Source: Phycisphaerales bacterium (GTDB lineage: Bacteria; Planctomycetota; Phycisphaerae; Phycisphaerales; SM1A02). Taken from it: a stretch of DNA of 64,000 nt. Position numbers and translations under genes: made by a program. This document shows positions 3,819 to 41,448 of this stretch, piece by piece (within the stretch, counting starts at the first letter, position 1; every line of letters starts with the position of its first letter). The notes beneath the pieces were generated by a model. That model did no database searches and was not told the origin of the DNA. It saw nothing but the letters and a program-made list of their open reading frames with translations. The stretch is from the NCBI GenBank assembly GCA_029247205.1, contig JAQWLT010000025.1:1-64000 (forward strand), in the 5' to 3' direction.

Positions 3819-4760
3819 ATGGCCACCGTGCAAGAATCCGATGTACTCAAGTTGATTCAAGATCGCGTCCTGACCAAGGATCCTCGCGTGCTCCTCGGCC
3901 CAGGCGATGATTTGGCCGCCATCCGCTCGCCGGCGGGCACGCTGCTTGCTGGCGTCGATCAGATCATCGATGGGCTCCATGTGCTCGCCGATCGGGTGCC
4001 GTGGAATCGCATTGGACAGAAAGCCGTGCACCGTAGTGCGAGTGATATTGCAGCCATGGCAGGTTCACCGCTGGCGACCCTTGCATCGGTCGTGCTTCCT
4101 GCCGGGACATCCCCTGCCAATGTGGAATTGCTTTGCGCGGGCCTGCACGAAGCAGCAGAAGCGGTGGGGGCCCCCCTCGTTGGAGGTGATGTTGCTATTC
4201 ATCTCAGCAAAGACCATCCACTGACTCTTTCAGTGACCGTTCTGGGCGAGGCAACAAAGCATGGTCCAATTGAGCGTAGAGGCGCCAAGGCGGGCGATCA
4301 TCTCTACGTCACGGGCACGCTTGGGGGGAGTTTGATGCCAGACGGCACCGGCCATCATCTAGACTTTTACCCTCGCGTAGCGGAGGCACTTGAGTTGCTT
4401 GATGCTCTTGGCGACGATCTGCACGCCATGATCGATATCAGCGATGGACTAGGCCGAGACGCAGGCCGCGTTGCGTCGGCGTCGAGCCTGCAAGTGCGCA
4501 TCGATACAGCGGCTGTGCCGTGCCGAGTTGGCGCTTCAATCGAAGATGCGCTTCGCGACGGCGAGGATTACGAATTGCTGTGCGCCGTCGCCCCGAACGC
4601 CGCCGTACCGACTGATCTTGGCACTGGTGATCCGCGTTGCCCAATCTCACTCATCGGTGTCTTCTCGGCCATGCCTGATTCGGACACACGTCGAGTCCTG
4701 CTTGAGCACCCTGACGGCAGCACCACCGACGGCACCCACCTTGGATGGGATCACGGGTGA
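3819..4760 (+). CDS. thiL: Thiamine-phosphate kinase
   Basis: LLGPGDDLAAI, AGVDQIIDGLHV, SASDIAAMAGSPLA, VGGDV, DISDGLGRDAG. Confidence 0.93.
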   Translation: MATVQESDVLKLIQDRVLTKDPRVLLGPGDDLAAIRSPAGTLLAGVDQIIDGLHVLADRVPWNRIGQKAVHRSASDIAAMAGSPLATLASVVLPAGTSPANVELLCAGLHEAAEAVGAPLVGGDVAIHLSKDHPLTLSVTVLGEATKHGPIERRGAKAGDHLYVTGTLGGSLMPDGTGHHLDFYPRVAEALELLDALGDDLHAMIDISDGLGRDAGRVASASSLQVRIDTAAVPCRVGASIEDALRDGEDYELLCAVAPNAAVPTDLGTGDPRCPISLIGVFSAMPDSDTRRVLLEHPDGSTTDGTHLGWDHG

Positions 4761-22029: not shown

Positions 22030-23141
22030 CCGAGCAGCAGGGCCCGATTCGGCCCGGCGGCGCCGTCGATCCGGAATTAATACCCACAGAAGATGGGCCA
22101 GCCCACGTCACGTTCACACTTTCGCGTGATCTCAACAAACGGCTCGACCGCTATCTCGGCGATCGCATTCCTTGGCTCAGTCGGACTTCATTGCAACGTC
22201 TCATTCGGGAGGCTGCGGTAACTGTCAACGGACGCCACCCAAAGGCCTCAACAAAGCTCCGAAAGGGAGACGTCGTTGATGTCGTCCTTCCGCCCCCCCC
22301 AAGTTCAGACTTGCCAGCCGAAGAGATTCCCATCAACATTATTCATGAAGACCCTGCACTGCTCATTATCGACAAGCACGACGACATCATTGTGCACCCA
22401 GCAAGAGGTAATCAGTCGGGCACCATTATCAATGGGCTTGCATGGCACTTTCAACAGTCAGGCAGCGGAAGCCTGAGCGAAGTCGGCGCCGAGCAGGCTC
22501 GACCAGGCGTTGTACACCGACTTGATCGACACACAACCGGTGTCATGGTTGTCGCCAAGACAGAAACCGCTCACTGGAGAATTGGCAAACAGTTCGAGGA
22601 GCGACGCACAAAAAAACGGTACGTCGCACTCGTCCACGGCAACGTCGAGCCTGTTGCTGATTTGATCGATCTTCCACTTGGCAAACACCCCACTATCAAA
22701 CACTGCAATGCAGTACGCTGGGATGAAACCGGAAAATCAGCCATCACGCTCTATCGAGTGCTCGAAGGATACGGCGACTTTACGCTTCTTGAAGTCGAGT
22801 TACGCACCGGCCGAACCCACCAGATTCGCGTACACCTCTCACACCTCGGATGGCCTATTGCAGGTGATGACATGTACGGCGGAAAGCACGTAGAAGTGCG
22901 TGATGTATTGAGCCCTGATCGAAGCGAAGGTGATCGCCGCCGCATATTGCTCGGCCGCCAAGGACTGCATGCCGCTTTACTCGGGTTTACCCATCCGACT
23001 ACTGACAAACCAGTGGAGTATCGCGCACCCCTGCCAGCTGACATCAGAGGATTGATTCAGATCTTGCGTGATCGCGGGCCTGTGCATCGCCCCACCGTCA
23101 CCGGACAAGTGCTCGATGTGGACGAGCTCATGGAGACGTAG
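22026..23141 (+). CDS. RluA/RluD-family 23S rRNA pseudouridine synthase
   Basis: S4 domain (RLDRYLGDRIPWLSRTSLQRLIREAAVTVNG), GVVHRLDRHTTGVMVVAKT, RTGRTHQIRVHLSHLGWPIAGD. Confidence 0.94.
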   Translation: MTEQQGPIRPGGAVDPELIPTEDGPAHVTFTLSRDLNKRLDRYLGDRIPWLSRTSLQRLIREAAVTVNGRHPKASTKLRKGDVVDVVLPPPPSSDLPAEEIPINIIHEDPALLIIDKHDDIIVHPARGNQSGTIINGLAWHFQQSGSGSLSEVGAEQARPGVVHRLDRHTTGVMVVAKTETAHWRIGKQFEERRTKKRYVALVHGNVEPVADLIDLPLGKHPTIKHCNAVRWDETGKSAITLYRVLEGYGDFTLLEVELRTGRTHQIRVHLSHLGWPIAGDDMYGGKHVEVRDVLSPDRSEGDRRRILLGRQGLHAALLGFTHPTTDKPVEYRAPLPADIRGLIQILRDRGPVHRPTVTGQVLDVDELMET

Positions 23142-24423
23142 CAGGACTTTTTTGCAGCAGCGACTCAATCTTCGTCCTGACCTTCTTATCCATCTCCGGC
23201 AAAAAACCAGTCCATTTTTCAGCAACGGTACCGTCAGGCGAAATCAGTACTTGAGTCGGCAACGTCGTGATGCCCCATGCAGTCTGCACTGCAGCGGCTG
23301 GGCTCACAAGGGTCGGTATCGACAGTCTGCCTGCTGCCCAATACCGACTCGCCAATTCGGTGCGTTGCTCGAGACCTTCCACCCGCTCCATCACATTAAC
23401 TCCGTATACCTTTACTTGGCCTTCTCCAGCACCCGTGGCCTGAAAAACTTTGTCCATCTGCACGAGAGAACGCTGACAAGCCTTTGCCCATGTTGTCCAA
23501 AAGCAGAGCAATACAACATCACCCTTGAGTTCAGCAAGATCGACCACATCTCCCTGTAAGTCGGACAGCCGAAGCGGCGGCGCCACTTGCCCAGCAAATA
23601 TCCGATTGCGATCGATTGGGTCGAGTTGCCATCGCTCAGTCACGGGAAGCCGCTCACCAGGGTCAAATGTAATTGGCTCTGGAAGCACGTCAACAAATTG
23701 AGTGTCGGTTTCTAACTTCATAGTCCAGACCACTGGCGGCGCCCCATGTTCGACCTGAACTTTCATCGTAGCCTCGGCTGAGACAATTTTATTCTCAACA
23801 ATATGAATCGATCCCTGACCCATTGGCCCCCCAAGAAGTACTCGATGATGGGAACGTCCGTCCTCCGAATCGATGACTTCAAGCCCAGTAATCGTGGGCT
23901 CGCCGATTGCTCGCATCATCACCATGTCAAGCCACAGTTCTGGTGGCGCAGCCTCTCGCATCATCACTTCAAAACCGGCAACGAAGGGATTGCCGTACAC
24001 ACCCTCGAGCCCCGTTGATATCCCCTGCCCCAACGGCACGCGGATGTACCGATCGTAGATCGCGTGATCAAGCACGTTGAGCCATCCATCTGTCGCAACA
24101 ATGATCGAGCCGAGGCTCTTGATGACTGCTTCTCCATCGGGGCCAAAGACAGACTCAACCGTCAGCTCATTCGTGCTCCCGAGCGACTCTGTCTTTACCG
24201 TCGTACTGCATATGACTACCGGAGCATCATGAAATGCCTGTGCAACTTGAACCAACATTCCTCGTGCTTCATCAACAATGGCCTGATCAGCCGGCTCGAC
24301 TGACGGCTGTGGAATGGGCTGTATTTGCGAGGGATCGACCGACTGAGCACAAATCGACGAACTCAGAGCAGCGGCCGCCAGCAGGGCAGCCACAAAGACG
24401 CTGGGATGAGGAGTTATTTTCAT
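23128..24423 (-). CDS. Secreted TlpA-like thioredoxin-fold protein with AxxC instead of CxxC
   Basis: Signal peptide; VVLLCFWTTWAKACQRS and WGITTLPTQVLISPDG (cis-Pro loop). Confidence 0.82.
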   Translation of the reverse strand: MKITPHPSVFVAALLAAAALSSSICAQSVDPSQIQPIPQPSVEPADQAIVDEARGMLVQVAQAFHDAPVVICSTTVKTESLGSTNELTVESVFGPDGEAVIKSLGSIIVATDGWLNVLDHAIYDRYIRVPLGQGISTGLEGVYGNPFVAGFEVMMREAAPPELWLDMVMMRAIGEPTITGLEVIDSEDGRSHHRVLLGGPMGQGSIHIVENKIVSAEATMKVQVEHGAPPVVWTMKLETDTQFVDVLPEPITFDPGERLPVTERWQLDPIDRNRIFAGQVAPPLRLSDLQGDVVDLAELKGDVVLLCFWTTWAKACQRSLVQMDKVFQATGAGEGQVKVYGVNVMERVEGLEQRTELASRYWAAGRLSIPTLVSPAAAVQTAWGITTLPTQVLISPDGTVAEKWTGFLPEMDKKVRTKIESLLQKSPATSP

Positions 24424-24463
24424 GTGCTAAGCATAGCCATGAACCTTTGCCGTTGCCCAGAAG

Positions 24464-24522
24464 CTACGCGCGGCGAATCACGATCGTCTGGTCTACCTGT
24501 TCAACCGGAACGTACTGCAGTG
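24464..24522. repeat. 59-bp direct repeat, copy A
   Basis: ctacgcgcggcgaatcacgatcgtctggtctacctgttcaaccggaacgtactgcagtg; one mismatch to copy B at 26241-26299. Confidence 0.95.
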
Positions 24523-24600
24523 TTCCGTATGGACAGATCGACGGCACCTCGGTGAGGTCTTCTAGATGGTCAGGAGAGAGATCCTCCAAAAGATGTTGGA
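24464..24600 (-). pseudogene. Remnant of a CRTAC1/ASPIC-type gene 3' end
   Basis: Minus-strand frame reads LSPDHLEDLTEVPSICPYGTLQYVPVEQVDQTIVIRRA*, cf. LGEEDHLQSPLRVIWPDGALQYVPVEQVDQTIVIRRE* at the end of the 26241-28088 gene. Confidence 0.7.
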
Positions 24601-24660
24601 TGATGCGACGTCGGAACACGCGGAGGCTCGAACTTCATCTTGGCCGTCTGACCGGTTCCA

Positions 24661-26091
24661 TCAGGGTGCCATGGGGTAGTGGGCGTTCCAGATCGAAAGT
24701 AGGTTCAGGAGGTCGTGGATCTCGACCACACCGTTGAAGTTCGTGTCATGCGGTCCCGTGTCTAGTGTCCTATGCATTTCAGCGAGATCAAAGGGGTCGA
24801 TGAGGCCGTCGCCGTTGAGGTCTCCGGCAAGGACGTACGGAGGTTGCTTCGGAGAGCAACCACTTCCGCATGTCGTCCCCGAGGAGAGGCATGGCGCAGT
24901 ACTGCCTGCCCAAGTGTTGCCCTTGGCGAAGCAGTGGTAGCTGCTGAAATCATTGATCATGAAGTAGGCGTCCGGATCGAAACCGGCGTACGCCCCGGCC
25001 TTGGCCATCGCGTTGGTGCACTCGGTCATGACGTCGTTCAAGTACTGAATCCTTTTTACGGGATTGCTGTTGTAGCCAGCGGCATACATGAGGAAGCCGA
25101 AGGAAGTCTTGCGGCAGTCCGGTCCAATCGATGAGTCGGTGCCGGCTTCGATTCCGAGGCTGACGGTCTTGGTGGCGCTGATAGATCGAGCCTTCTTCAG
25201 AACCTTGTACGCGAAGAACGCCATTCCGTCTGAACCGGCGGGAGTGTCTCCGGTGCAGTCCGCCGCACTGATCGGGCAGCACACCGGCTTGGCGGGGTCG
25301 CAATTCCCTGATTTTAGGCAGTTGGCGGTGCGGTAGGCAAGCAGTGCCGTGCGATCGATGTAGTGCAGCAGGCACTCCCAGCAATCGACCTCGCTGCCGC
25401 CGACCTCCGGGCAGGGGACTTTGATGGTGTCCGCGGGCATGCCGGCGAGAGGAACCATGGTGCCGATGGTCAGGCTTGCTCCCAGCGTGGCCCTGGCATT
25501 CGGATTTCCCTGGTTGTGGGTATCGATGCGACTCCGGGCTGTCTTGAGGACCTGCTGGAGCGCCACCATGTTTGCCTTGATGGCGGACTCGCTGCCGTCG
25601 AGATCCGGTTCGAGGTCAAGAAATATTTCTATCGTTGGTTGGCCACCGGACTTGTTGGTGGTCCATGACGTGGCGCCGGAGAAGTCGGTGCTGCTCAGCA
25701 TTAGAAGAAATCGGCTCACGTTGCACAGGATGTCTGCAGTGTTGGCGTGGGTGAATTTCAGCACCGAGTACATCACTGAAAATCTGTGGCCGGCTCCGTC
25801 TACTTTGTTGATGTAGGCGTAGAAATCCGCGAAGGTACTTGCACCACCAATGCAGCCTCCATGAATGGACGCCCCGTCCTGGACGATCCTTCCCTGTTTG
25901 AGAGACGGATCGGGGCCACTGTCCATGAATGCCAGAAGATCATCCTGCAGCATTGCCGACTGCGTGCCCTCGATGATGTCCTGGCTCCATACGAACAGTC
26001 CTGTCTTCTCGGTGGCGGCTTCTGCAGTTTCTGTGCTGGTAATCAGGTGGATGCCGATTAAAAATGCAATTGCAAGCCGTTGTAATTTCAT
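24661..26091 (-). CDS. Secreted Cys-rich protein with C-terminal dockerin-like domain, unknown catalytic domain
   Basis: Signal peptide MKLQRLAIAFLIGIHLITSTETAEA; C-terminus LAGDLNGDGLIDPFDLAEMHRTLDTGPHDTNFNGVVEIHDLLNLLSIWN. Confidence 0.83.
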   Translation of the reverse strand: MKLQRLAIAFLIGIHLITSTETAEAATEKTGLFVWSQDIIEGTQSAMLQDDLLAFMDSGPDPSLKQGRIVQDGASIHGGCIGGASTFADFYAYINKVDGAGHRFSVMYSVLKFTHANTADILCNVSRFLLMLSSTDFSGATSWTTNKSGGQPTIEIFLDLEPDLDGSESAIKANMVALQQVLKTARSRIDTHNQGNPNARATLGASLTIGTMVPLAGMPADTIKVPCPEVGGSEVDCWECLLHYIDRTALLAYRTANCLKSGNCDPAKPVCCPISAADCTGDTPAGSDGMAFFAYKVLKKARSISATKTVSLGIEAGTDSSIGPDCRKTSFGFLMYAAGYNSNPVKRIQYLNDVMTECTNAMAKAGAYAGFDPDAYFMINDFSSYHCFAKGNTWAGSTAPCLSSGTTCGSGCSPKQPPYVLAGDLNGDGLIDPFDLAEMHRTLDTGPHDTNFNGVVEIHDLLNLLSIWNAHYPMAP

Positions 26092-26240
26092 GAGTTGTCC
26101 TCAGCTTCTATTGGAACTTCAGTATAAAAAGTAGCCTACTCCAATTCGGATCAGCTGGACTTCTTTGGTATGTATTCTTGTGGCCGGATCAGTCGCCGAG
26201 GGTGTACTGGACCAATGGGAAGTAGCACCCCGCCTATTCA

Positions 26241-26299
26241 CTACTCGCGGCGAATCACGATCGTCTGGTCTACCTGTTCAACCGGAACGTACTGCAGTG
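26241..26299. repeat. 59-bp direct repeat, copy B (3' end of the CRTAC1-like gene)
   Basis: 58/59 identical to 24464-24522 at an offset of 1777 bp. Confidence 0.95.
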
Positions 26300-28088
26300 C
26301 ACCATCAGGCCAAATGACCCGAAGAGGCGACTGCAGATGATCTTCCTCACCAAGGCCGAATGTAACTGGAAACTCCACTTGGGAGAGATAGGAACGTGTC
26401 GGCATCACTTGCCGACGTTGCACCACACCACCGGCCTCAAGTTCTATCCACGCCCCAATTGCATCACGATTAGCGGTCGTCGGATCAACCAGTTGCACAC
26501 GAAGCCAGTGATGACCGAGGGCTTGATCATTCCGAAGCAGTAGCGGCGGCTCACCGACTTGGGTCACGATGAAGTCCAGATCACCATCGCCATCGATGTC
26601 CGCGTACGCGGCGCCTCGACCCACGATTGGTAGAGCGAGATCACCTGCACCTTCAGACGGAACAATGCGAAAACATCGCTGGCCTCCCCCGTTCCAGAAT
26701 AGTTGCGATGGCTGACGATAGTGCTGACTGGATTGCACCTCGTTGATCTCTTCTTCGAGATGCCCATTGGTCTGGAAGAGGTCTAGGCGACCATCGAGGT
26801 CGTAGTCAACGAGCAAGAGACCAAAGGAAAGCAGTGGACGAGTGGGCGCGCCGATGCCTTCAACCACGGCCTCATCGCTAAACCACTTGCCTGGCGACTC
26901 ACACACATAGAAACTAGTCATCTCATTGGCAAAGTTGCCAATTCCTATGCCAAGCGACGCATCATTGCGGTAATGCCCAACGTCGATGCCCATGGCGCCG
27001 GTCGCCATGCCACGCTGGTCATACGCAAGACCGACATCAACGCCAGCTTCCTCGAACGTGCCGTCACCTCGGTTGCGAAAGAAGAAATTACGAGTCGTGT
27101 CATTTGCAACGATCAAGTCCATGTCACCATCGGCATCAAGGTCCACAGGGGCAACGGCAAGCGACTTTCCGACTGCAGCTCCGGTGGCGTCATTCTGAAC
27201 AACCATGCCAGATGCGGCTGAGACATCCTCGAACGTGCCGTCGCCGCGATTGAGCCAGAGGGTGGCATGCGACCCCTCGTATTGCTTCGGAGGTCCATAG
27301 GCACGATCTGTGCCATTGATCGTAAAACCGAGCGAGAGATCCTTCTCGCGTGACCACTTCACATAGTGCGGCACAAAGAGATCAAGATCCCCGTCACCAT
27401 CTACATCAACAAAGGCAGGACTTGTACTCCACGCGTCAACGTCGCCTGCAACCCCAGCGATATCTGTCACATCCTCAAACCCGTTTCCCGTGTTTCGATA
27501 CAAATGGTCTCCACCGAGCGAAGCAAGAAAGACGTCGACATGACCATCACCATCCCAGTCACCAACCGCAAGACCTGTTCCGTACACGCCATGCCCAATG
27601 TCCCAACGACCTCCATCGGCATCAAATTGGCCCGCTCCGTCGTTGAGATATCCGCGGGTGGCAGTTTCGCCGTCATGGGTAGTGTCTTCAGGCCACCAAG
27701 TGCCGCTACCAAGTAGTAGATCCTGATCTCCATCGCCATCTAGATCCACAAAGGCCGCTCCACCACCCATTGTCTCGGGCAGCAGCTTCTCTCCAGTCGC
27801 GCCAGAGACATGCGGAACCACCAGACCTGACGCTTCGGTGACATCACTGAACTGCACGGCGGGAAGCAAGGAAACATCTGCTAGGAGTGGCGCTGGTGCA
27901 ACAAGGTCCTTCTCAATCACGACTTCCTCAGGCTCACCCTGCAGCGCAACAACAGCCCATATAGCGAGCCCGAGAACAACGAGGCAACCAAATACGAGCA
28001 GCGACCACATGAAGGCCTTGCCAATGATCGCATCATCGCGGATTTCAAACTCATCGGTCTCCTCGGAGCGAGGCAAGTCCGTACTCAT
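26241..28088 (-). CDS. CRTAC1-like protein: FG-GAP/VCBS repeats plus ASPIC/UnbV domain, N-terminal TM anchor
   Basis: Repeats such as FVDLDGDGDQDLLLGSG and DWDGDGHVDVFLAS; WIELEAGGVVQRRQVMPTRSYLSQVEFPVTFGLGEEDHLQSPLRVIWPDG (ASPIC/UnbV). Confidence 0.9.
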   Translation of the reverse strand: MSTDLPRSEETDEFEIRDDAIIGKAFMWSLLVFGCLVVLGLAIWAVVALQGEPEEVVIEKDLVAPAPLLADVSLLPAVQFSDVTEASGLVVPHVSGATGEKLLPETMGGGAAFVDLDGDGDQDLLLGSGTWWPEDTTHDGETATRGYLNDGAGQFDADGGRWDIGHGVYGTGLAVGDWDGDGHVDVFLASLGGDHLYRNTGNGFEDVTDIAGVAGDVDAWSTSPAFVDVDGDGDLDLFVPHYVKWSREKDLSLGFTINGTDRAYGPPKQYEGSHATLWLNRGDGTFEDVSAASGMVVQNDATGAAVGKSLAVAPVDLDADGDMDLIVANDTTRNFFFRNRGDGTFEEAGVDVGLAYDQRGMATGAMGIDVGHYRNDASLGIGIGNFANEMTSFYVCESPGKWFSDEAVVEGIGAPTRPLLSFGLLLVDYDLDGRLDLFQTNGHLEEEINEVQSSQHYRQPSQLFWNGGGQRCFRIVPSEGAGDLALPIVGRGAAYADIDGDGDLDFIVTQVGEPPLLLRNDQALGHHWLRVQLVDPTTANRDAIGAWIELEAGGVVQRRQVMPTRSYLSQVEFPVTFGLGEEDHLQSPLRVIWPDGALQYVPVEQVDQTIVIRRE

Positions 28089-30886
28089 TCCACCACTCCC
28101 GCTGCCGTCGGCGTCAACTCGTAAATAACGACCGCTTCCGAGGCACGATTTGCCGCCGGATACCGCTGCCTCGCTTGTGAAATTGCATGGTCCTTCGCAT
28201 TGTCATCTGGTTTGTACTTGTCATGCAAGGCCTCGTGCATCGCCGCCGCTTCAACATCTCCAAGGTCGCGAAGAACCTGCATCAACCCGTAGTGGGCAGC
28301 CATACCTTCAGGATCAAGGATGAGACTTGCCTCAAACATCTCCGCTGCCTCATGAAGGTACGCAGTTCGTTCTTCGCGTCCCGCTTCGCCGCGTGCCATT
28401 CTTGCTCGCTCGTACAAGGTGCTACCAACTTCATTGAGTACACGCCAGTCCTCAGTAAAATCAAAGCCTCGGCCACTTGCCTGGGCGAATCCGCCCTCAA
28501 GGATTTGCCGATACTTGGCAATCGCTTCGTCAAGACGACCATTCTGCCGGTCAACTTGGCCACCAAACCACAGCAGGTGCCATTCGCGGGCTGCAGGCAA
28601 TGCTGCGGCACGCGAGATCGCTGCTGGGGCATCTTCGGTCACACGACCTTCCTTCAAGTAGACACGAGTCAGGTTGATCGGACCGTCTGGCTTTCCAGCG
28701 GCTTCAACCTGGCGGAATGCCTCCTCGGCCTCCTTGAGTTCGCCAGCGCCACCCTTCCGCAAGAGCGCAATTCCGTAGTCATTCCAGCGAACCCATTCGG
28801 GCACCTCTACTGGTCGAATTGCTACAGGCGCCTCCATTCCATCGAGTGGCAAAGTGACTTCATCAGTCGCGAGCACCGTGATTGGCAGGTCATTAATCCA
28901 AGCTGCGTCCTCGTGTACAAATCTCATCAGCGTCGTATCAAACTTGCGATATTTCAACTCGGCAGAAATCGTGATGGGTGCATCGCAGTCCTCCGGCACG
29001 CGGAATCGATAGTGCACAACATCTGCGGCACCCGGCGGAATCTGATTGTTGTACAGAGCGGTAAAGATGTCTTGAGCATTGCGACGCTCAATCCGATTGC
29101 CGTCACGGTCTATCACGAATGAATTCACAAAGTGTGCCCACGGATCCACAATTCCTTCGACATCCATGCCACCGCTTTGCCCGATAACAGCATCACCACA
29201 TTTGATCTGCACATCCATCCATACTTGATTGGAGTCAGCGGTGCCTTGCGTGAAGACATGACCCATTTTGACAGTTCGAACGACTGCCTCCATCAGATAT
29301 TCTTTACCCGGAACGAGCGATGGGGTCACATCAGGGCCCAATGGCCCAATCAGTTCACTTGCAATAGTGCCCCCGGGTTTGATCCCAAACAGATCAAGCC
29401 GCATCACACCCTCAAGAAACTCCTGATGCTTGGCGATAGCCTCCTCTGGCCGTGGCATGTCAACCAGTCGCGGCATGGCGGTATTTGCGGAGGGGAACAT
29501 GTGGTCATGCACTTTCAACTGCCCACTGTCATCGCGGCGTTCGGCTCCAAAGTCATCCGATGCCATCAACGGCATATGACATGCGTTGCAATTGACCTCA
29601 GCGATGGGTGGGTAATAGAAACTGGTAATGCCATGGCCAGAGACGCCGCTCAGGCGGAAGGTGTCCTGATGATCCTGCCCGCGGAGCCACTTGTAGTGAT
29701 TGAGTTCCTCAGGCAGGTGCACCTTGTGGCATGTCCCGCAGAACATCTCGGTTTTGTGCAGCGGCTTAAGGAAGGTCTTCTTGTGAAACTCAGGCTTTGC
29801 CTTGACCAACTGCTGATTCACCCACTTCAAGAGTGGACTGTCTGAGAAGGTGAAGGGATAGTGTGGTGGCTCATCAATCGTGTAGTCCGCATTGCCAAGA
29901 GGCGAGTTGACATGCGTGATGCCATGACAAACGGTACAGGTGATTCCTGCATGAGCGGTCGGATCGAACTCCATGTCATAATCAGGATCATTGAAGGCAC
30001 CGCTGAAGAACGGAACTGGGTCATGACACCCCGCACAGAACCGAGAGGCCGTCACATCTCCGTCACGTTCCATGGCAACATCGCGAGTTTCGCTGACCGC
30101 TGCCATGTAGACCGGATTATTGAATGATGAGAAACGATGCACGCTGTGCATCCATGAGTCGTGGATGTCGGCGTGGCACGTCAGGCAGTATTCGTCGTTA
30201 TCGAGCACACTGGCTGGAATGAAGTCTCCACTGACAGTGCTTGCCAGAGAAGGGAAGAAGTACTGGTCGCCCGCGGCATTCCCTTCGACGTTCCACTTGC
30301 GAGGGTCTTGTGATTGCATCGTCAGCATGACCACTGCAAAGACAGCGGAAACACCTGCCCAAGAGATCCCGACCCCCCACTTGATTCGCCGGCCAGCAAG
30401 CCGGTGCAAGATAAAGAGCCAAATGACCAGCAGCGGAACGACCACATGCAGCCACCAGGCAACACTGCGAAACGCTGGATCTCGAATGTCAATAATTCCC
30501 TCAATCCGCACCAGCACAATGCCCGTACCAAGCACAATGAGGGCGGCACTAAAGAGGGCATAGCCTGCTTTGGCAGCTCGGCGATTCGGATGATCGTGGA
30601 CGCGCCGCATGTGCAATAGCCCAAATGCGATGATCGGAAGGATGATCACAAGGCCAAGCACTAAGTGGGCGAGGAACATTGTCAGATAGAACCAGTTCTC
30701 GTACGACTCTCCAGTCGAGAGGCCAAGCACGCGAATGCCAACGAGATACACCGAATTGACAATCAATAGAGCAAAGAGACCGAAGCTTCCCCACAAAAGC
30801 ACGGCCAATCCAGCAACAGGCGCCCGCCAGCGTCGCCGGCGATCTTCGATGGTGGCAGAATCTGGCGAAACTTGAGTCATGAACAC
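28085..30886 (-). CDS. Membrane multiheme cytochrome c with C-terminal TPR-like region
   Basis: Several N-terminal TMs; five CxxCH motifs (CLTCH, CAGCH, CTVCH, CGTCH, CNACH); helical repeat C-terminus. Confidence 0.88.
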   Translation of the reverse strand: MFMTQVSPDSATIEDRRRRWRAPVAGLAVLLWGSFGLFALLIVNSVYLVGIRVLGLSTGESYENWFYLTMFLAHLVLGLVIILPIIAFGLLHMRRVHDHPNRRAAKAGYALFSAALIVLGTGIVLVRIEGIIDIRDPAFRSVAWWLHVVVPLLVIWLFILHRLAGRRIKWGVGISWAGVSAVFAVVMLTMQSQDPRKWNVEGNAAGDQYFFPSLASTVSGDFIPASVLDNDEYCLTCHADIHDSWMHSVHRFSSFNNPVYMAAVSETRDVAMERDGDVTASRFCAGCHDPVPFFSGAFNDPDYDMEFDPTAHAGITCTVCHGITHVNSPLGNADYTIDEPPHYPFTFSDSPLLKWVNQQLVKAKPEFHKKTFLKPLHKTEMFCGTCHKVHLPEELNHYKWLRGQDHQDTFRLSGVSGHGITSFYYPPIAEVNCNACHMPLMASDDFGAERRDDSGQLKVHDHMFPSANTAMPRLVDMPRPEEAIAKHQEFLEGVMRLDLFGIKPGGTIASELIGPLGPDVTPSLVPGKEYLMEAVVRTVKMGHVFTQGTADSNQVWMDVQIKCGDAVIGQSGGMDVEGIVDPWAHFVNSFVIDRDGNRIERRNAQDIFTALYNNQIPPGAADVVHYRFRVPEDCDAPITISAELKYRKFDTTLMRFVHEDAAWINDLPITVLATDEVTLPLDGMEAPVAIRPVEVPEWVRWNDYGIALLRKGGAGELKEAEEAFRQVEAAGKPDGPINLTRVYLKEGRVTEDAPAAISRAAALPAAREWHLLWFGGQVDRQNGRLDEAIAKYRQILEGGFAQASGRGFDFTEDWRVLNEVGSTLYERARMARGEAGREERTAYLHEAAEMFEASLILDPEGMAAHYGLMQVLRDLGDVEAAAMHEALHDKYKPDDNAKDHAISQARQRYPAANRASEAVVIYELTPTAAGVVE

Positions 30887-30952
30887 TTTCTCCCCCGATT
30901 AGGCTCAGTATCGGCGCATCGCACCCAGTCTGCACGCCTTTTTAGGAGTGAA

Positions 30953-33900
30953 TCAGCTGCCCGAACGATGCCGATCACGTAGCGGGGCATCCCACGGAAC
31001 CGGATCTACCGTTTCACCATCACGTGTCATCATGTCCATGTCCTTGCACCAACCTTTGACATCAAGGACTATCTGCCTGCTCCAGCCTTGTGGGAGCGAA
31101 GGGGGAGGCTCAAATCGGCAGCGAATGGCTTCGCCCGCACCAAAAACCGCAACGCTTTGATCATCTGAGGAAACAATCGACCGCACATCACCGAAGCGGG
31201 TGTACTCGCCACGCTGCGAACGAACATCCCAGAAAGGAACTCGGTCATCCCAGTCGTAGCCTGGCCTCCGCTGCGGGAGATTCAACCTCCGGGGATATCC
31301 CGGTTGCTCAAGAACCGCTGTAACTGGCAATTGTCGATCCACGCGAGCCTGTGGGCAGGGCTCAATGGCTGCGACCCGTACGGCATCGACATACAACTCG
31401 ATATCACACCGGATACGAAGTTCAGTTGACCCGCGCGGCACATCATCAAGGGGAAGCACACAAGTCCGCTGCATGCCCGCTGGAAAGCCGATGTCAGCGT
31501 GTACTACAGCCCACTGGCCATCGCTATTTCTCACTTCGATTGTGATCGGCGAATAATCCGCGCTGGCCTGCCATGCTGCGAACATCGTCTGCGAGTATGG
31601 ATACTCCACCCAACCATCAAGAACCAAGACCAACCGCTCACCAATCGAATCCAGTGGCTCAGCAAATTCCAGTTCCAGTTCCAGTGGCGACAGCACACGG
31701 CCAATAAAGCGAGTATCAATCAGCCCTGGATCCGCGGCGATGCCATCGACACTGCGCACGGCGTTCAGCACGTCTCCCCCACGGCTGGCGTGAATAGGGT
31801 GGAGGCTGCGAGATGAATACAAGAGTTCACTTGTTGGCATTGGCTCACTTGTGCCCATTCGCTCATCTGGCAGCACTTCCCAGCCTGGAGGAACATCGAT
31901 CGTCTCCAGCGCCACCGCGTCGAGATAGCAAGTTTCTTGCATGGGCTCTGCAAGCAGGATTTCGAGCATCCCACGTCTTTGTCCAAGCACCGGGCCTGGC
32001 AAGAGCACGCGTTCGCGAGGTCGTTCTGGCGCATACTCGCCTGGTGAAAGAAAGAAGCCCATGCCACCCACACCGAGGCAGTCGGTTTGAAACTGCATCG
32101 ATGTTCCATCCCACGCAAAGATCACCGGACAGGATGAAAGTTGTCGCTGGGTCTCGGTGATCTCGTGGAGGACTCCGGGCAAGAGTTGTGACTCGGTCTG
32201 CAGCACGCCGTCGGACCAATCGATCGACACGAAGTCGATGGCGTCGGCATCACCAATGCCAACAGAAACGGGCTGTAAACTCTGCCCTGGACCGGCGGTG
32301 TTGCGAATCGTTCCCGTAATCGTCCACCGATCTGCCACTCTTGCCGCGATCCCAGCGCCGATGCCGCTGCTATTAGATCGCATCGATTGGCCCATATCTG
32401 TTCTGCCCGCAAGCGTGATGTCCACAAAGGGCCACCTGCCAGTGCCCGGTGGAATGGTCGCAATGGTGCCCGACTCACCAGCAGAAACGAGCGTTGGCCC
32501 TTTGCTCTGCTTGTCATGGACCAACATCCAATGAGACTCAACCCTAAATTCCTGCAGCAACGCGCCTGTACGCGAGAGAATTTGAAGCATGGTCGAATCG
32601 CCCGTTTGCCAGCCGGATTGCAAGAGCACCTCTAGCCAACCATCGCCAGTCACATCAGCCACAGCCATCTGCCGAGGTCGGCCTGACGGGCGAGCATCGG
32701 TGGGCTTCTCGCCCACGGTTGCCAACACGGTGGCTGTCCAACCGGCCGGCCCGAATGTCCACACTCGTACCGTCTGGTCACCATCCACGGTGACCAAGTC
32801 AGTGTTGCCGTCCGCGTCCATATCTGCAGCAACAGCGGCTGCAATGTCTGTATTCAAGAGGTTTGACCACGCCTCATCGACATTCCGCCAGTGCCACAAA
32901 CGATCATTCACCCATGCATGGTGCGGGGGCGACTGACCAATGAGCAGTACATCAGTGTCGAGATCGCCGTCGAAGTCAGCGACCACAACTTGCCGGCCAC
33001 TCTCCTCCACCATAGGGAAGCCGCTCTGCTCGTCGACGACAGACTGCCACGTACCGTCGCCATTGTTATTGAGCAACTCGCACGGCGTCCCTTCATCGTT
33101 CACCACAAGTACATCAAGATCACCGTCATGATCAGCATCAAAGACGGCACCATCACGACTATTGCCGGGTGACCCTCCACTGAACCGTGGGTCGTGCTCA
33201 AAAACATGCGATCCGCGGCCAAGCCACAACTGGTTCTGGCCCGCCCTACACAGCACAACATCAATATGCCCATCGCCATCAACATCACCCCAAAGCGAGG
33301 CCTGCACCATTGAAACATCTTGCAGTTGGGGAACACCGTCCGCAGTACCCATAACTTCCGACTGCAACAAATTGCCTGCCGACCACTCATACAGGCGGCT
33401 CGCGGACTCATCGGAGATCAGCACAAGGGAATGTCCCTGATCAGTCCATCCGGCACTGAGTGAGGTAGCGATTGGACAGTGATCACAATTACTGAGGGCC
33501 ATGGCCTCTACATCAAAGAGTGATCCGCTTGGACGAGGCGATGGATCCCGTTTCATAGTTGCAATAGTGTGCAACTCAGCCTTTGGGCCCATTCGCGTGT
33601 ATTTGATTTCCGCTAGGTGCCCACGTGGATTGTGCTCCATCCGCTGGAATTCGTCGAGCCACGCGGCCGCTTGGTCGGCTTGGCCGGCACGCCGCGCTGC
33701 TTGCGAGCCAGCGTAGTAGGCACTTCGAAAGTATGGGTCAAGCGCGATGGCCTGCTCAAAGTGCGGCAACGATGACTCAATCTCGCCAAGTTGCATCATC
33801 GACTGCCCGAGGTAGTAGGCAGCGTACGCATCACTGGGGTCAGCGATCGAAACCGCGCGAAATTCCGCTCGGGCCTGTTCAATGTCGCCCGCATTGAGTC

Positions 33901-34243
33901 GAAGAATTCCCAACGTATATCGAGCACGAAGATTGTCAGGATTCGCAGCGAATACGCCCTCGAGGCGACGCAACGCCATTTGCTCATCGCCCTCCGTTTG
34001 ATTATTCAATTCGGCAATGGCAAGATCAATCTGCACATCAGCCCAGTTCGGATGCGATGCGGCCAGTGGCCTCAGAAATTCGATCGCACCCGCGTAATCA
34101 AAGGCCCCCATCGCCGCGACTGCGCGATTGTGTTCAGCAATAACAGCCAAGTCGGCCACGGGATCAACCATAGATTCGTTCTGCGAATCGCAACTTACTT
34201 GAGACGACAGCAACAAAGCAAGAACCATTCTGATCCTACTCAT
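30953..34243 (-). CDS. Large TPR + FG-GAP/VCBS + ASPIC-type protein (CRTAC1-like), secreted
   Basis: Signal-like N-terminus, TPR (PSDAYAAYYLGQSMMQLGEIESSLPHFEQAIALDPYF), DVDGDGHIDVVLCRAG repeats, SRGIGAGIAARV-like/ IDWSDGVLQTES ASPIC region. Confidence 0.85.
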   Translation of the reverse strand: MSRIRMVLALLLSSQVSCDSQNESMVDPVADLAVIAEHNRAVAAMGAFDYAGAIEFLRPLAASHPNWADVQIDLAIAELNNQTEGDEQMALRRLEGVFAANPDNLRARYTLGILRLNAGDIEQARAEFRAVSIADPSDAYAAYYLGQSMMQLGEIESSLPHFEQAIALDPYFRSAYYAGSQAARRAGQADQAAAWLDEFQRMEHNPRGHLAEIKYTRMGPKAELHTIATMKRDPSPRPSGSLFDVEAMALSNCDHCPIATSLSAGWTDQGHSLVLISDESASRLYEWSAGNLLQSEVMGTADGVPQLQDVSMVQASLWGDVDGDGHIDVVLCRAGQNQLWLGRGSHVFEHDPRFSGGSPGNSRDGAVFDADHDGDLDVLVVNDEGTPCELLNNNGDGTWQSVVDEQSGFPMVEESGRQVVVADFDGDLDTDVLLIGQSPPHHAWVNDRLWHWRNVDEAWSNLLNTDIAAAVAADMDADGNTDLVTVDGDQTVRVWTFGPAGWTATVLATVGEKPTDARPSGRPRQMAVADVTGDGWLEVLLQSGWQTGDSTMLQILSRTGALLQEFRVESHWMLVHDKQSKGPTLVSAGESGTIATIPPGTGRWPFVDITLAGRTDMGQSMRSNSSGIGAGIAARVADRWTITGTIRNTAGPGQSLQPVSVGIGDADAIDFVSIDWSDGVLQTESQLLPGVLHEITETQRQLSSCPVIFAWDGTSMQFQTDCLGVGGMGFFLSPGEYAPERPRERVLLPGPVLGQRRGMLEILLAEPMQETCYLDAVALETIDVPPGWEVLPDERMGTSEPMPTSELLYSSRSLHPIHASRGGDVLNAVRSVDGIAADPGLIDTRFIGRVLSPLELELEFAEPLDSIGERLVLVLDGWVEYPYSQTMFAAWQASADYSPITIEVRNSDGQWAVVHADIGFPAGMQRTCVLPLDDVPRGSTELRIRCDIELYVDAVRVAAIEPCPQARVDRQLPVTAVLEQPGYPRRLNLPQRRPGYDWDDRVPFWDVRSQRGEYTRFGDVRSIVSSDDQSVAVFGAGEAIRCRFEPPPSLPQGWSRQIVLDVKGWCKDMDMMTRDGETVDPVPWDAPLRDRHRSGS

Positions 34244-35229
34244 CGGCTGTTCTCCTTCGATGCAGAGATGCGGGCGCGCAAGGCCTCAATTGTGATTGGG
34301 CCGGCCATCGGCGGCAAACCAGGCTGGGATGCATAGGAATATGCTTCTGGTCGGTGATGCGATATCGTATCGTGGCCCACTCTTCTGGCACGCTCGTGTC
34401 GAAGCGCGCTGATATCAATGGGTGCTACAACCACAGTCTCCCCAGGGCCTGGATCAGCCTGCGCGAGTACGCGACCATCAAAGTCCACAACCATGCTTCC
34501 ACCCGGCCAAGAAAATGGCGGGTACTGCTCCATACTCGCCCCCTGATTAGAGGCGACGACGTAGCACATATTTTCGGCCGCCCGCGCTCTATTAAAGAGT
34601 GTCCACCAGTCCATTGGAGCTGTGGCCCCCCATGGATTCATGTACGCAGACAACCTGCACAAGACTTCGGCACCCTTGAAAGCCAACTCTCGCGTCACTT
34701 CAGGGAAGAGCCAGTCGTAGCAAATGCCCACGCCAATTCGACCAATTTCAGTATCTGCAACTGGAAAGTGATCGCCTGTTGGATCAACATCATGGGGCGA
34801 ACTATGTACTTCCCACGGAATCCATGGGTTTACCTTTCGATAGATTGACTCAACACCAGTTGGCCCAACAAGCACAGTCGTATTGAAGACCGCCCCGGGA
34901 TACTCGGCTCGACGCTCAAGGAACGTCCCCGTTTGAATCCAGCAGCCGAGGGTGCGGCACACCTCTTCATAGCGCGTGATGTGCTCGTTCGGCACTTCAA
35001 CAGCAAGCGACTGGTGCAGGCGATCTGCCGACTCATGGATAGGTACGGCGTGCGAGAATTCTGGAAAGGTGAGCAGCCGCACATCAAAGAACGGCTCATA
35101 TCCCATCACCGTCTGCTTGACCATATCGATCATTCGGTCAGTTCGAGAGCTGATATCCGATCGCTTTGTCGGCGAATCAAATGCGGTCTGACAGGCTGCA
35201 GCGTAATAGCGGAGGTCCATGGGAGGCAA
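34240..35229 (-). CDS. Nitrilase-superfamily carbon-nitrogen hydrolase
   Basis: Catalytic E (LLTFPEFSH), K (IYRKVNPWIPWE) and C (GVGICYDWLFPEV). Confidence 0.9.
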   Translation of the reverse strand: MPPMDLRYYAAACQTAFDSPTKRSDISSRTDRMIDMVKQTVMGYEPFFDVRLLTFPEFSHAVPIHESADRLHQSLAVEVPNEHITRYEEVCRTLGCWIQTGTFLERRAEYPGAVFNTTVLVGPTGVESIYRKVNPWIPWEVHSSPHDVDPTGDHFPVADTEIGRIGVGICYDWLFPEVTRELAFKGAEVLCRLSAYMNPWGATAPMDWWTLFNRARAAENMCYVVASNQGASMEQYPPFSWPGGSMVVDFDGRVLAQADPGPGETVVVAPIDISALRHERARRVGHDTISHHRPEAYSYASQPGLPPMAGPITIEALRARISASKENSR

Positions 35230-35284
35230 TGATAGGACGGGCAGCAGGGTTCAGTCAGTCAAACCCTGCCGTACAATCAATTTC

Positions 35285-36736
35285 ATGATTCAGGCGAGAC
35301 TACTTCCACTGCTGCTGATCCTGCTGCACTCCTGTGATGCCCCCACGCCAGACGTTGGCCCTCCACCATCGCCGCTACATCCAATGGTCTTTGACGGCGA
35401 GGTCATCGAATCAATCTCGACTCAGATTGACTCCATCCTTGCTGCACCAAATGACGCAGAATTAAGAAGATCACTCGGCCTGCTCTATCTGGCAAACGGT
35501 GGGCCAGCTGAGGCCACCACTGCACTTGAGCAAGCGATCATCCTCGACCCAGCTGATCCTCGCTCGTGGTGTTTTCTTGGAATGGCGAGAGAACAGTCGG
35601 GAGACCTCAACGGGGCCATCATTGCGATGGCTAATGCCCGCGAACTTGCGCCGAGCCACACGCCACTGTATTGGAGGCCAGGCTTTTGGCTTATCGAAGA
35701 GGGCCGCCCCGAAGCGGCGATGCCACTTTTCCAACAAGCGGCCGCAGAAGATGCCCGCAGTATTCGCCCGAGCCCCGATGGCGCGGCCCACCGCATTGGA
35801 CGGGCTCGCTGTCTGCTTGATCTTGATCGCCCTGCCGAGGCAATTCCTATTCTGGAAGAATTACGTGGGCTTGTCACCCACTACTACGCCGACTATCTGC
35901 TCGGCCAAGCATATCGCCGCAGCGGCCGCAGTGAAGATGCAGCACAACTCCGAATTGGAGCAACGTCGGACCCACCGAGCTTTCCAGACCCTTGGGCTGA
36001 TGCTATTTCAGCCTCGAAGCGTGGGCTCGATGGCCGACTCGCACGGATTGATGAGCTGCTTGACGTCAATCGACTGCGCGATGCAGCCAATGCAATCACC
36101 CAAGCACGAGAGACGTGGCCCAAGGAAGTGAACCTCTTGCACCGTCTTGCTCGACTGTACAGCCTGCAGGGCAATTCCACCGCATGGGTGCGTGTGCTGA
36201 AACAAGCAGCGAGAATGGATCCCGACAATGCAGCGACGCAGCACAACCTATCCATTGCCCTGACTCGTTCGGGTGAACTCAACGAAGCGCTCAACCACGC
36301 CCATCTCGCCGTTAGTGCCAACCCCAACATGGCGGAGGCATGGATGCAAATTGGTCGGCTGATCATTCGACTGCGAGGGCTAGACGGTGCTCCAGGCGAA
36401 GACGACAAAGCTGCAGCCGACGCAGCACTCGTGCCAATTGATCATGCTTTCGAATTAGGAATTCAGACACCTGGCGAGCACCTGATGTACGGACATCTAC
36501 TCCTCAGAGCAAACCGACTTGCCGATGCCCAGCGTGTGCTTCAACGGCTGATTGAACGCGGCGACGCCGATCCACAGGCTTGGTCGATTCTCAGTGAAAC
36601 ATGGTCCGCCAGTGGCGACCACCAGCAGGCACTTCGCACTGCTATTGATGGCCTCAATCGCTTCCCCTCTCAGCCTGACCTTGTTCGAATTGTTGATCGA
36701 TACAGGCGAGCAACAGGCGGAGCGCCACTCCCATGA
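35285..36736 (+). CDS. TPR-repeat lipoprotein
   Basis: N-terminus MIQARLLPLLLILLHSC; many TPR units (LGLLYLANGGPAEATTALEQAIILDPADPRSWCFLGMAREQSGDL). Confidence 0.88.
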   Translation: MIQARLLPLLLILLHSCDAPTPDVGPPPSPLHPMVFDGEVIESISTQIDSILAAPNDAELRRSLGLLYLANGGPAEATTALEQAIILDPADPRSWCFLGMAREQSGDLNGAIIAMANARELAPSHTPLYWRPGFWLIEEGRPEAAMPLFQQAAAEDARSIRPSPDGAAHRIGRARCLLDLDRPAEAIPILEELRGLVTHYYADYLLGQAYRRSGRSEDAAQLRIGATSDPPSFPDPWADAISASKRGLDGRLARIDELLDVNRLRDAANAITQARETWPKEVNLLHRLARLYSLQGNSTAWVRVLKQAARMDPDNAATQHNLSIALTRSGELNEALNHAHLAVSANPNMAEAWMQIGRLIIRLRGLDGAPGEDDKAAADAALVPIDHAFELGIQTPGEHLMYGHLLLRANRLADAQRVLQRLIERGDADPQAWSILSETWSASGDHQQALRTAIDGLNRFPSQPDLVRIVDRYRRATGGAPLP

Positions 36737-38448
36737 ATGGAACCGCTCCCACGCTCACCATTCTGACACTGTTTCTGTGCGGATGCGGAGACTCTCCCGC
36801 AGCACCATCAATCGCATCTTCAAATACGAGCGTTCCCACAAAACCATGGCTGCTCGACGTTGCCACTCAAACTGGAGTCGACTTTGTTTGGCAGTCGGGG
36901 CATAACACTGAATTCTTGATGCCCGAAATTGTCGGTGGTGGTGTTGCATTGTTTGACTACGACGCCGACGGGGATCTCGATGTGTATTTCGTGCAAGGAG
37001 GCGATCTTGCAACCAGTTGGACTGATCCACGAAGTAACACAGCCCGGAATGCGCTGTATCGCAACAATGGCGACTGGACATTCACTGATGTCACAGACAT
37101 CACGCAAGCCGGCGACAGCAGATATGGAATGGGCATCGCCGTAGGCGATACTGACGGCGACGGCGATCCAGATCTGTACATCACCAATGTTGGCCGCAAC
37201 ACGATGCTTCGTAATGACAATGGCGTGTTTACGGATATCACCGACGAGTCCGGAACCGGCGATAGCGGCTGGGGCGCAAGCGCCGCATTCTTTGATGCCG
37301 ATCTCGACGGCGATCTTGATCTGTACACCACCAACTATCTCAATTGGACACCGACCACCGAAATTACCTGCTTCAGTTCACTCGGAGGCGAAGACTACTG
37401 CTCGCCACGCAACTATCTCTCGCCGGCCAAGGATGTCTTCTATCGAAACCGCGGCGACGGGACATTCGACAACGCGACAGTAGACGCAGGCTTTGATGCT
37501 GCCAATGGGACTGGTCTGGGCGTGGTTGTCACGGATTGGAATGCTGACGGCCACCCTGACATCTTCGTTGCCAACGACGGCATGGCCGACTTGTTGTGGA
37601 TGGCCAATGGCGACGGCACATGGACGGAATCTGGCATGCAGCGTGGATGCGCCCTGGACGACGAGGGCATTGCAAAGGCTGGCATGGGCGTCGACTCGAC
37701 TGACATCGATAACGATGGGGACATGGATCTCATTGTGTGTAATCTCACCGGTGAGTCTGACTCGATCTTTCGCAATGACGGTGACTACTTTGTCGACATC
37801 ACCGGCCGTACTGGTGTGCGTGCAAGTACGCGACATGCCACACGCTTTGGCATTGGACTCGTGGACGTCAATAACGATGGCTTGCTTGACCTCTACGAAG
37901 CCAATGGCGCCGTGACTCGCGAGTCAGCGACCGCAGGGGATGATCCCTATGCTCAGCAGAACGCACTGCTCGCCGGAACACCCAACGGTCGATTTACGCC
38001 AGTAAGTCCCCGGGGCGGGACAGCCGATGCCATCACACTGACAAGCCGGGGTGCTGCATTTGGCGACCTCGATGGTGACGGTGGCCTCGACATCGTTGTC
38101 ATCAATCGCGACGAACCAGCAAGTGTGTATCGAAACATCGTTCCTTCGCGGGGCAATTGGGTACGCATCGAGGTGCTCGACTCAACCGGAAGGCCCGCGA
38201 TCGGTGCAACCGTGCACGGCCAACTGGGCGAGCGGACCATCATGCGGCCGGTACGCCGGGCCTACTCCTATATGGCCTCGAACGAACCTACCGTGCATAT
38301 TGGTCTTGGCGATGAGACTGAGCTGGACCAGTTTGTTGTGCGATGGCCAGACGGAACCCAGTCCAAACCGATGAAACTCAGCCCGAACCGGGTCTGGACG
38401 ATTCGCCATGCTCTTGGCAATGAAGAGGCCACAGCCACCGCTCTCTGA
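36733..38448 (+). CDS. CRTAC1-like lipoprotein: FG-GAP/VCBS repeats plus ASPIC/UnbV domain
   Basis: Lipobox LFLCGC; FDYDADGDLDVYFVQGGD, DTDGDGDPDLYITNVG; HGQLGERTIMRPVRRAYSYMASNEPTVHIGLGDETELDQFVVRWPDG. Confidence 0.92.
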   Translation: MNGTAPTLTILTLFLCGCGDSPAAPSIASSNTSVPTKPWLLDVATQTGVDFVWQSGHNTEFLMPEIVGGGVALFDYDADGDLDVYFVQGGDLATSWTDPRSNTARNALYRNNGDWTFTDVTDITQAGDSRYGMGIAVGDTDGDGDPDLYITNVGRNTMLRNDNGVFTDITDESGTGDSGWGASAAFFDADLDGDLDLYTTNYLNWTPTTEITCFSSLGGEDYCSPRNYLSPAKDVFYRNRGDGTFDNATVDAGFDAANGTGLGVVVTDWNADGHPDIFVANDGMADLLWMANGDGTWTESGMQRGCALDDEGIAKAGMGVDSTDIDNDGDMDLIVCNLTGESDSIFRNDGDYFVDITGRTGVRASTRHATRFGIGLVDVNNDGLLDLYEANGAVTRESATAGDDPYAQQNALLAGTPNGRFTPVSPRGGTADAITLTSRGAAFGDLDGDGGLDIVVINRDEPASVYRNIVPSRGNWVRIEVLDSTGRPAIGATVHGQLGERTIMRPVRRAYSYMASNEPTVHIGLGDETELDQFVVRWPDGTQSKPMKLSPNRVWTIRHALGNEEATATAL

Positions 38449-40109: not shown

Positions 40110-40853
40110 ATGACCGCCCAATCTCCGTACCAACGAGTATTGTTGAAGATCAGTGGCGAAAGTTTCTCGAAGCCGGGCGAGGGCGGCATCAATAGCGACG
40201 AATTACAGAACATCGCGTCCGAGATTGTTGAGGCGATGAAATCCGGCATCGGTATGGCCGTCGTTGTTGGCGGCGGCAATATGATTCGTGGGGCCAATCT
40301 AGCCCGCGAACTCAGCATTGACCAATCAACCGCAGATTACATGGGCATGCTTGGGACGGTCATGAACGGCATGGCCCTTAAAGAGGCACTTGAACATCTC
40401 GGACAACCGGCACGCCTCATGACGGCCATCAACATGCCATCGATTGCAGAACCATTCATTCGCAAACGTGCCATGCGACACATGGAACGAGGCCGCTGCA
40501 TCATCCTTGCGGCAGGCACTGGGAACCCATTCTTTACAACTGACACGTGCGCTTCGCTACGAGCGACCGAACTCAATTGCGATGTCGTCCTGAAAGCCAC
40601 GAAGGTTGACGGAGTGTATGAGTGTGACCCCGCCCTGAATCCAGACGCCAAACGCTTTGACGAGTTGACATTTGCCACAGCGATTGAAGATCGCCTCGGC
40701 GTCATGGACCTCACCGCCCTCTCCATGTGCATGGAACATGGCCTACCCGTGATTGTCTTCGACTTCAAAGAGCCTGGCAATATTGCTCGAGTCGTAGGTG
40801 GTGCCCAGATCGGAACACTGATTCACAACCACACGCCAAGCGGGACTGCCTGA
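40110..40853 (+). CDS. pyrH: UMP kinase
   Basis: YQRVLLKISGESFSKPGEGGIN, VVVGGGNMIRGAN, AAGTGNPFFTTDTCASLRATELNCDVVLKATKVDGVY. Confidence 0.97.
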   Translation: MTAQSPYQRVLLKISGESFSKPGEGGINSDELQNIASEIVEAMKSGIGMAVVVGGGNMIRGANLARELSIDQSTADYMGMLGTVMNGMALKEALEHLGQPARLMTAINMPSIAEPFIRKRAMRHMERGRCIILAAGTGNPFFTTDTCASLRATELNCDVVLKATKVDGVYECDPALNPDAKRFDELTFATAIEDRLGVMDLTALSMCMEHGLPVIVFDFKEPGNIARVVGGAQIGTLIHNHTPSGTA

Positions 40854-40875
40854 AGGCCTCACAGGAGCGAATGTC

Positions 40876-41439
40876 ATGAGCGATGCCATTACCAAGGCCA
40901 TGCAGGCCAACATGGCCAAATCCATTGAGTACTTCCAAAAGGAACTCCGAGGCATCCGCACAGGCCGGGCAAGCACCGCTCTGCTGGAGTTTCTCAAGGT
41001 TGAAGCCTATGGCGGCATGGTCGACTTGCGAGATGTCGCTGCGATTTCTGTGCCCGAAGCAACCCAACTACTCGTCAAACCCTTCGATCCAACACTGAAG
41101 AATGGTCTCGCGAAGTCAATTGAAGGAGCGGACCTGGGGCTGAATCCTCAGGTCGAAGGCGAATCCATTCGTATACACCTTCCGCCGCCATCAGCAGACC
41201 GACGAAAGCAACTCGTCAATCAGGTTGGAAAGCTTGCGGAAGAAACGCGGATCGCCGTTCGCAACGACCGCCGGGATGCAATGAAACAAATCGACGCACT
41301 CATCAAAGACAAAGGCAACTCGCTATCCGAAGACCAGGGCAAGGATCTCAAGAGCGAGGCCGACAATTTGACCAAGTCGAGTATTGCCACGATCGACACG
41401 CTTGCCAAGAACAAGACGGCCGAAGTCGAATCGATATAA
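40876..41439 (+). CDS. frr: Ribosome recycling factor
   Basis: SIEYFQKELRGIRTGRASTALLEFLKVEAYGGMVDLRDVAAISVPEA; pyrH-frr order. Confidence 0.97.
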   Translation: MSDAITKAMQANMAKSIEYFQKELRGIRTGRASTALLEFLKVEAYGGMVDLRDVAAISVPEATQLLVKPFDPTLKNGLAKSIEGADLGLNPQVEGESIRIHLPPPSADRRKQLVNQVGKLAEETRIAVRNDRRDAMKQIDALIKDKGNSLSEDQGKDLKSEADNLTKSSIATIDTLAKNKTAEVESI

Positions 41440-41448
41440 CTAAGTAAC

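Follow-up and report, generated by a model that had tools for sequence, protein, structure and literature searches.

The locus described here raises the question of how a single secreted gene came to lie between two nearly identical copies of the 3' end of another gene. In the window (the whole stretch of DNA analysed, 64,000 nucleotides) a pair of 59-base direct repeats brackets this gene, here called the cargo, and separates a CRTAC1-like gene from a tlpA-like gene. The genome that carries it (G000) is a draft of a planctomycete of Phycisphaerales type (86% complete, 70 contigs), and the named genomes nearest to it were assembled from marine metagenomes (Phycisphaerales from ALOHA, the Arabian Sea and similar sources). 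A sequence-only reading of the locus had offered two explanations, either an insertion that regenerated the CRTAC1 gene end as integrative elements do or the collapse of two tandem paralogues around the cargo, and had proposed looking for an empty site in relatives, for deviating codon usage in the cargo and for the 59-mer elsewhere in the genome. Our analysis identifies the locus as a case of horizontal gene insertion in which 59 bases of target were duplicated and the source locus can still be read, and neither as an integrative element nor as a pair of collapsed paralogues. Its features are as follows.

23128..24423, minus strand: tlpA-like gene of the thioredoxin fold, which originally lay next downstream of the CRTAC1 gene (Pfam AhpC-TSA/Redoxin; directly after CRTAC1 in G003 and G008)
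24424..24463, minus strand: native 40-base spacer ahead of tlpA; a conserved -10-like TATGCT closely precedes the ATG (TATNCT also in relatives)
24464..24522, minus strand: left 59-base copy, a CRTAC1 3' end still in its former place next to tlpA (agrees with the right copy at 58/59; position as in the G003 and G008 empty sites)
24523..24621, no strand: filler of about 99 bases, from the left copy to the fmdB scrap (no significant match, no Pfam)
24622..24651, plus strand: 3'-end scrap of an fmdB-like gene, with a reading like GGSNFILAV and stop (profile of fmdB 3' ends)
24661..26091, minus strand: cargo, an intact gene for a secreted protein of 476 aa whose C-terminus bears a weak dockerin-like/EF-hand motif (Dockerin_1, 20.4 bits)
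26092..26188, minus strand: 97-base stretch that arrived together with the cargo and corresponds to the spacer between tsf and the dockerin gene in the donor locus (partly alignable with the 105-base spacer of G015)
26189..26236, minus strand: 3'-end scrap of tsf (EF-Ts), ending in GCYFPLVQYTLGD and stop (tsf 3'-end profile; 27/32 to G015 tsf)
26241..26299, minus strand: right 59-base copy, the functional 3' end of the CRTAC1-like gene (repeat comparison)
26241..28088, minus strand: CRTAC1-like gene, intact, with FG-GAP repeats and ASPIC/UnbV (Pfam)

The repeat pair and the original site

The coordinates and the identity of the repeat had been read correctly from the sequence: the copies agree at 58/59 positions, with an exact run of 54 bases and a sole mismatch (24468 G, 26245 T), a match far above chance level. 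Both code for a protein end of LQYVPVEQVDQTIVIRR followed by E or A and the stop. In a survey of contigs C32 and C39 of G000 (261.6 kb; threshold of at least 20 exact bases, spacing of at most 6 kb) this was the only direct repeat found, and a DNA search of the whole assembly gave no third copy. Outside the repeat the identity declines from 9/16 through 15/40 to 26/80, and when the next 80 bases are aligned locally, 53% of shuffles score as well or better. Similarity ends at the repeat edge, and the sequences outside are unrelated rather than diverged copies. The weak upstream similarity that had been seen between PDHLEDL and EDHLQSP is hence a matter of chance, and the suggestion that gene conversion had kept the repeat alike against diverged flanks loses its support.

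An empty site of the kind sought is present in two genomes of the same genus, G003 and G008, where the tlpA-like gene begins 33 and 36 bases past the CRTAC1 stop with nothing between. The distance from the left repeat copy to tlpA in the window is 40 bases, and the -10-like TATGCT near the tlpA start recurs as TATCCT or TATGCT in G001, G002, G003, G005 and G008. This conservation of TATNCT very near the tlpA ATG, seen in six species, suggests that the tlpA-like gene possesses its own promoter and a very short leader. Because of the empty sites, and because the left copy adjoins the conserved promoter-like sequence of tlpA, the left copy represents the old CRTAC1-tlpA junction and 24523-26240 is the insert; the ancestor of G000 carried the CRTAC1-like gene followed by tlpA within about 40 bases. 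The insert comprises 1718 bases and a single gene, the cargo. Both neighbours are whole, CRTAC1 with a full 3' end provided by the right copy and tlpA with its upstream region including the left copy, and the host DNA gained 59 bases and lost none. The intact neighbours may be a reason why the insertion was tolerated.

The same interval holds other genes in other members of the family. In G001, G002 and G005 a convergent gene of about 900 aa lies between CRTAC1 and tlpA. G015 and G012 likewise have a homologue of it behind CRTAC1, which makes five relatives in all; in G003, G008 and G000 it is missing behind CRTAC1. Its presence in G015 and G012 indicates that this gene was probably the older occupant of the site, lost in G003, G008 and G000; the CRTAC1 tree groups G003 with G008 and does not settle the position of G000. 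Dockerin-like genes are found behind CRTAC1 in further family members too, and together with the variable gene of about 900 aa they show that the gene content at this spot turns over. None of the relatives with other genes at the site has a duplicated CRTAC1 end, and CRTAC1 3' ends are poorly conserved even within the genus.

The cargo gene and its source locus

The cargo has a signal-peptide-like N-terminus and is probably a secreted or surface-displayed protein, as predicted from its sequence. The name 'dockerin gene' is loose, since its Dockerin_1 score of 20.4 bits lies under the Pfam cut-off of 22.9, no match was found in NCBIfam, and the single-sequence fold (pLDDT 36.5) is too low to use. 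Codon usage at 24661-26091 does deviate, as the sequence-only reading had thought worth checking: the GC3 of 0.717 ranks first among 182 ORFs of the C32 and C39 sample (mean 0.581, sd 0.044), and is shifted towards the value of 0.80 of the homologue in G015. This homologue, on contig C32 of a genome that belongs to a different genus of the same family, is the best relative of the cargo, with 40-43% identity. No closer relative was detected in 181 family genomes or in 397 genomes drawn from the class, and nothing resembling the cargo appeared in 72,556 plasmids, in viral contigs or in a GTDB 220 contig scan. A near-identical donor was accordingly not among the sequences searched and, given that the best relative is only about 40% identical, the donor is distant from G015.

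The G015 homologue sits between a same-direction tsf (EF-Ts) gene and a convergent fmdB-like zinc-ribbon gene, and members of the cargo's family with 27-29% identity occupy the same position in G001 and G008, so the order tsf-dockerin-fmdB occurs in three relatives. Relatives of the protein within the genus of G000 thus reach just 27-29% identity, less than the 40-43% of G015 from another genus. Remnants of both these neighbours are found at the ends of the insert. For the tsf scrap, a profile built from the last 27 bases of tsf in nine genomes and run over about 128,000 positions gave 28.6 bits, against 14.7 for the next best site (27.4 against 14.8 bits with G015 left out of the profile). 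It lies 97 bases upstream of the cargo start, where the corresponding spacer in G015 has 105 bases, and it matches G015 tsf at 27/32 positions, with a weaker match beyond 26218. The fmdB scrap lies 9 bases past the cargo stop, compared with 12 in G015, and in a profile of fmdB 3' ends over about 128,000 positions it is the top site at widths 21, 24 and 30 (20.2 against 14.0 bits at 30) and ranks fourth at width 18; this scrap is short, and its identification is less strong than that of the tsf scrap.

We also considered whether the cargo had moved from the tsf-fmdB site of G000 itself, where both genes are intact on contig C32, 96 bases apart and with nothing between them. This was rejected, because the tsf scrap is nearer to G015 tsf than to the tsf of G000. 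As a separate observation, pyrH is followed at once by an frr-like reading frame at 40110-41440 of the window, whereas tsf lies elsewhere, next to fmdB (G000:C32:12929-13711); the location of tsf on another contig than pyrH and the frr-like frame means that the common bacterial order tsf-pyrH-frr is broken in this genome.

The scraps, the empty native site, the GC3 and the closest relative in another genus together point to horizontal transfer from an unsampled relative that had the gene between tsf and fmdB. We infer from these sequence features that the source was nearer to G015 at the tsf-fmdB locus, and horizontal transfer with a 59-base target duplication is very likely.

Between the fmdB scrap and the left copy lies the filler (24523-24621), for which neither the assembly itself nor the 181 family genomes nor the CRTAC1-tlpA loci of relatives gave a significant match. 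The family genomes gave only 19-31-base matches, in unrelated genes; there was no Pfam match, and the peptide reading gave nothing. The idea that the filler is debris of the gene of about 900 aa found at this site in relatives received no support.

Joining of the insert to the chromosome

The filler at one junction and the duplication at the joint fit illegitimate joining, and a single template-switching event would yield a piece that has scraps at its two ends, filler on one side and a duplicated stretch of target. The explanation that probably accounts best for the whole locus is that a foreign piece with its donor scraps was joined by illegitimate recombination between CRTAC1 and tlpA, most simply through template switching. 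A growing strand would have left the chromosome just past CRTAC1, copied in order the tsf end, the dockerin gene, the fmdB end and the filler from foreign DNA, and rejoined the chromosome at a point 59 bases upstream of where it had left, so that these 59 bases would have been copied twice. This template-switch step is an inferred one, to which we give slightly less than even chances. The foreign DNA could have entered by transformation, which is a guess; an uptake protein of the ComEC type was detected. A search of nine genomes of the genus, G000 among them, gave no Ku, a result that rests mainly on the eight relatives, G000 being a draft (86%). Moreover, the insert and the neighbours tested with Pfam contain no recombinase, integrase or transposase, the insert ends have no terminal inverted repeats, and neither a tRNA nor a known RNA (Rfam) lies beside them. 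A comparison of the insert ends with the CRTAC1-tlpA region of relatives revealed no resemblance at either end, the donor being unsampled.

The nearest alternative to template switching is the capture of the foreign piece at a staggered break, in which nicks 59 bases apart, filled-in overhangs and ligation would duplicate the target without any element. It predicts the same product, with an intact target copy on each side, and filler DNA is common in end joining; however, the search for Ku, negative in G000 and in eight other genomes of the genus, makes classical end joining unlikely and leaves the route with no known machinery for ligation here, and 59 bases is long for a natural overhang, so we consider this route rather unlikely. 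Another route would be a Campbell-type single crossover with a circle, or recombination with donor DNA, in which the dockerin cassette was already fused to a CRTAC1 3' end. With 59 bases of homology a circle would produce the same direct repeat and a foreign flank upstream of the left copy. Such a near-identical end is hardly expected in a foreign donor when CRTAC1 3' ends are poorly conserved within the genus, and the first joining event would merely be shifted elsewhere, which leaves this route improbable. The possibility that the assembly of a metagenome-derived genome produced the arrangement has to be weighed as well, because the draft is in 70 contigs and the assembly of a metagenome can link sequences of different organisms where short repeats occur. 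Such an error, however, would change organism a single time and would not yield a foreign piece between two copies of one host sequence; furthermore, the copies differ by one base and their neighbours differ on both sides, so each junction needs its own reads. An artefact is thus barely credible.

The two explanations offered by the sequence-only reading fare differently. Its view of the locus as an insertion that regenerated the CRTAC1 end fits, in agreement with the empty sites, the foreign composition and the donor scraps, and the geometry also fits site-specific integration by a tyrosine or serine recombinase with the CRTAC1 3' end as attachment site, since the right copy regenerates the gene end and the displaced end lies at the far side. 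The analogy with integrative elements is not sustained, as the insert carries a single gene and no integrase, none is found in the Pfam-tested neighbours, terminal inverted repeats and a tRNA are missing, the att-like core has no third copy and is not conserved in relatives, and the insert ends are scraps of housekeeping genes; this mechanism is very improbable. That two tandem CRTAC1 paralogues collapsed or decayed around a trapped dockerin gene, while gene conversion kept their ends alike, is the reading to which we attach almost no weight. CRTAC1-like paralogues are indeed common in these genomes, but similarity stops at the repeat edge with an alignment beyond it no better than shuffles, none of the relatives examined has tandem CRTAC1 genes at the site, and the insert ends belong to tsf and fmdB.

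Known systems and the surrounding genes

Homology-facilitated illegitimate recombination (HFIR) in transformable bacteria integrates about 1 kb of foreign DNA with at least one illegitimate joint, requires homology at one end and usually deletes host DNA of about the size of the insert (PMC3240628). The insert described here has the illegitimate joint in common with HFIR, but host DNA was duplicated instead of deleted and no homology between donor and host is visible, the donor being unsampled. Transposons and insertion sequences likewise lie between direct copies of their target; here neither a transposase nor a terminal inverted repeat is present, and 59 bases is much longer than their usual target-site duplication. 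Integrative elements at gene 3' ends resemble the locus in that the insert side restores the gene end and the former end comes to lie at the far side, and they differ from it in the recombinase and the conserved core, both absent here, and in the origin of the insert ends from housekeeping genes. Template switching of the FoSTeS/MMBIR type predicts insertion, filler and local duplication from one event, as seen at this locus; in the literature found, such events are described mostly in eukaryotes.

The locus is a clear and unusually legible case of an ordinary process, horizontal gene transfer. Gene acquisitions without an element usually leave no readable scar; here the scar gives both the target, as the 59 duplicated bases, and the address of the source, as the tsf and fmdB scraps, and thereby leaves a few testable models for the mode of joining in this uncultured lineage, in which no Ku was detected. 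The locus also shows that, in this family, genes come and go behind CRTAC1 and behind tsf and that the genes next to them remain intact. We regard it as very unlikely that a recurrent process free of any element moves secreted dockerin-like genes between spots behind conserved genes such as tsf and CRTAC1 and duplicates the gene end on arrival; if true, a set of surface proteins would circulate in marine Phycisphaerales without transposase or integrase.

Other features were observed around these genes. The window at 26241-38448 holds two genes of CRTAC1/ASPIC type, a third FG-GAP/TPR protein, a multihaem-cytochrome-like protein with TPR repeats and another TPR protein, and the pairing of CRTAC1 with the multihaem gene is conserved across many genomes of planctomycetes, verrucomicrobia and acidobacteria. 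Downstream of tlpA in G008 (contig C45, locus L025) there is a direct repeat of 428 bases, 424 of them identical, with copies about 2.7 kb apart at reverse-complement positions 4739 and 7443.
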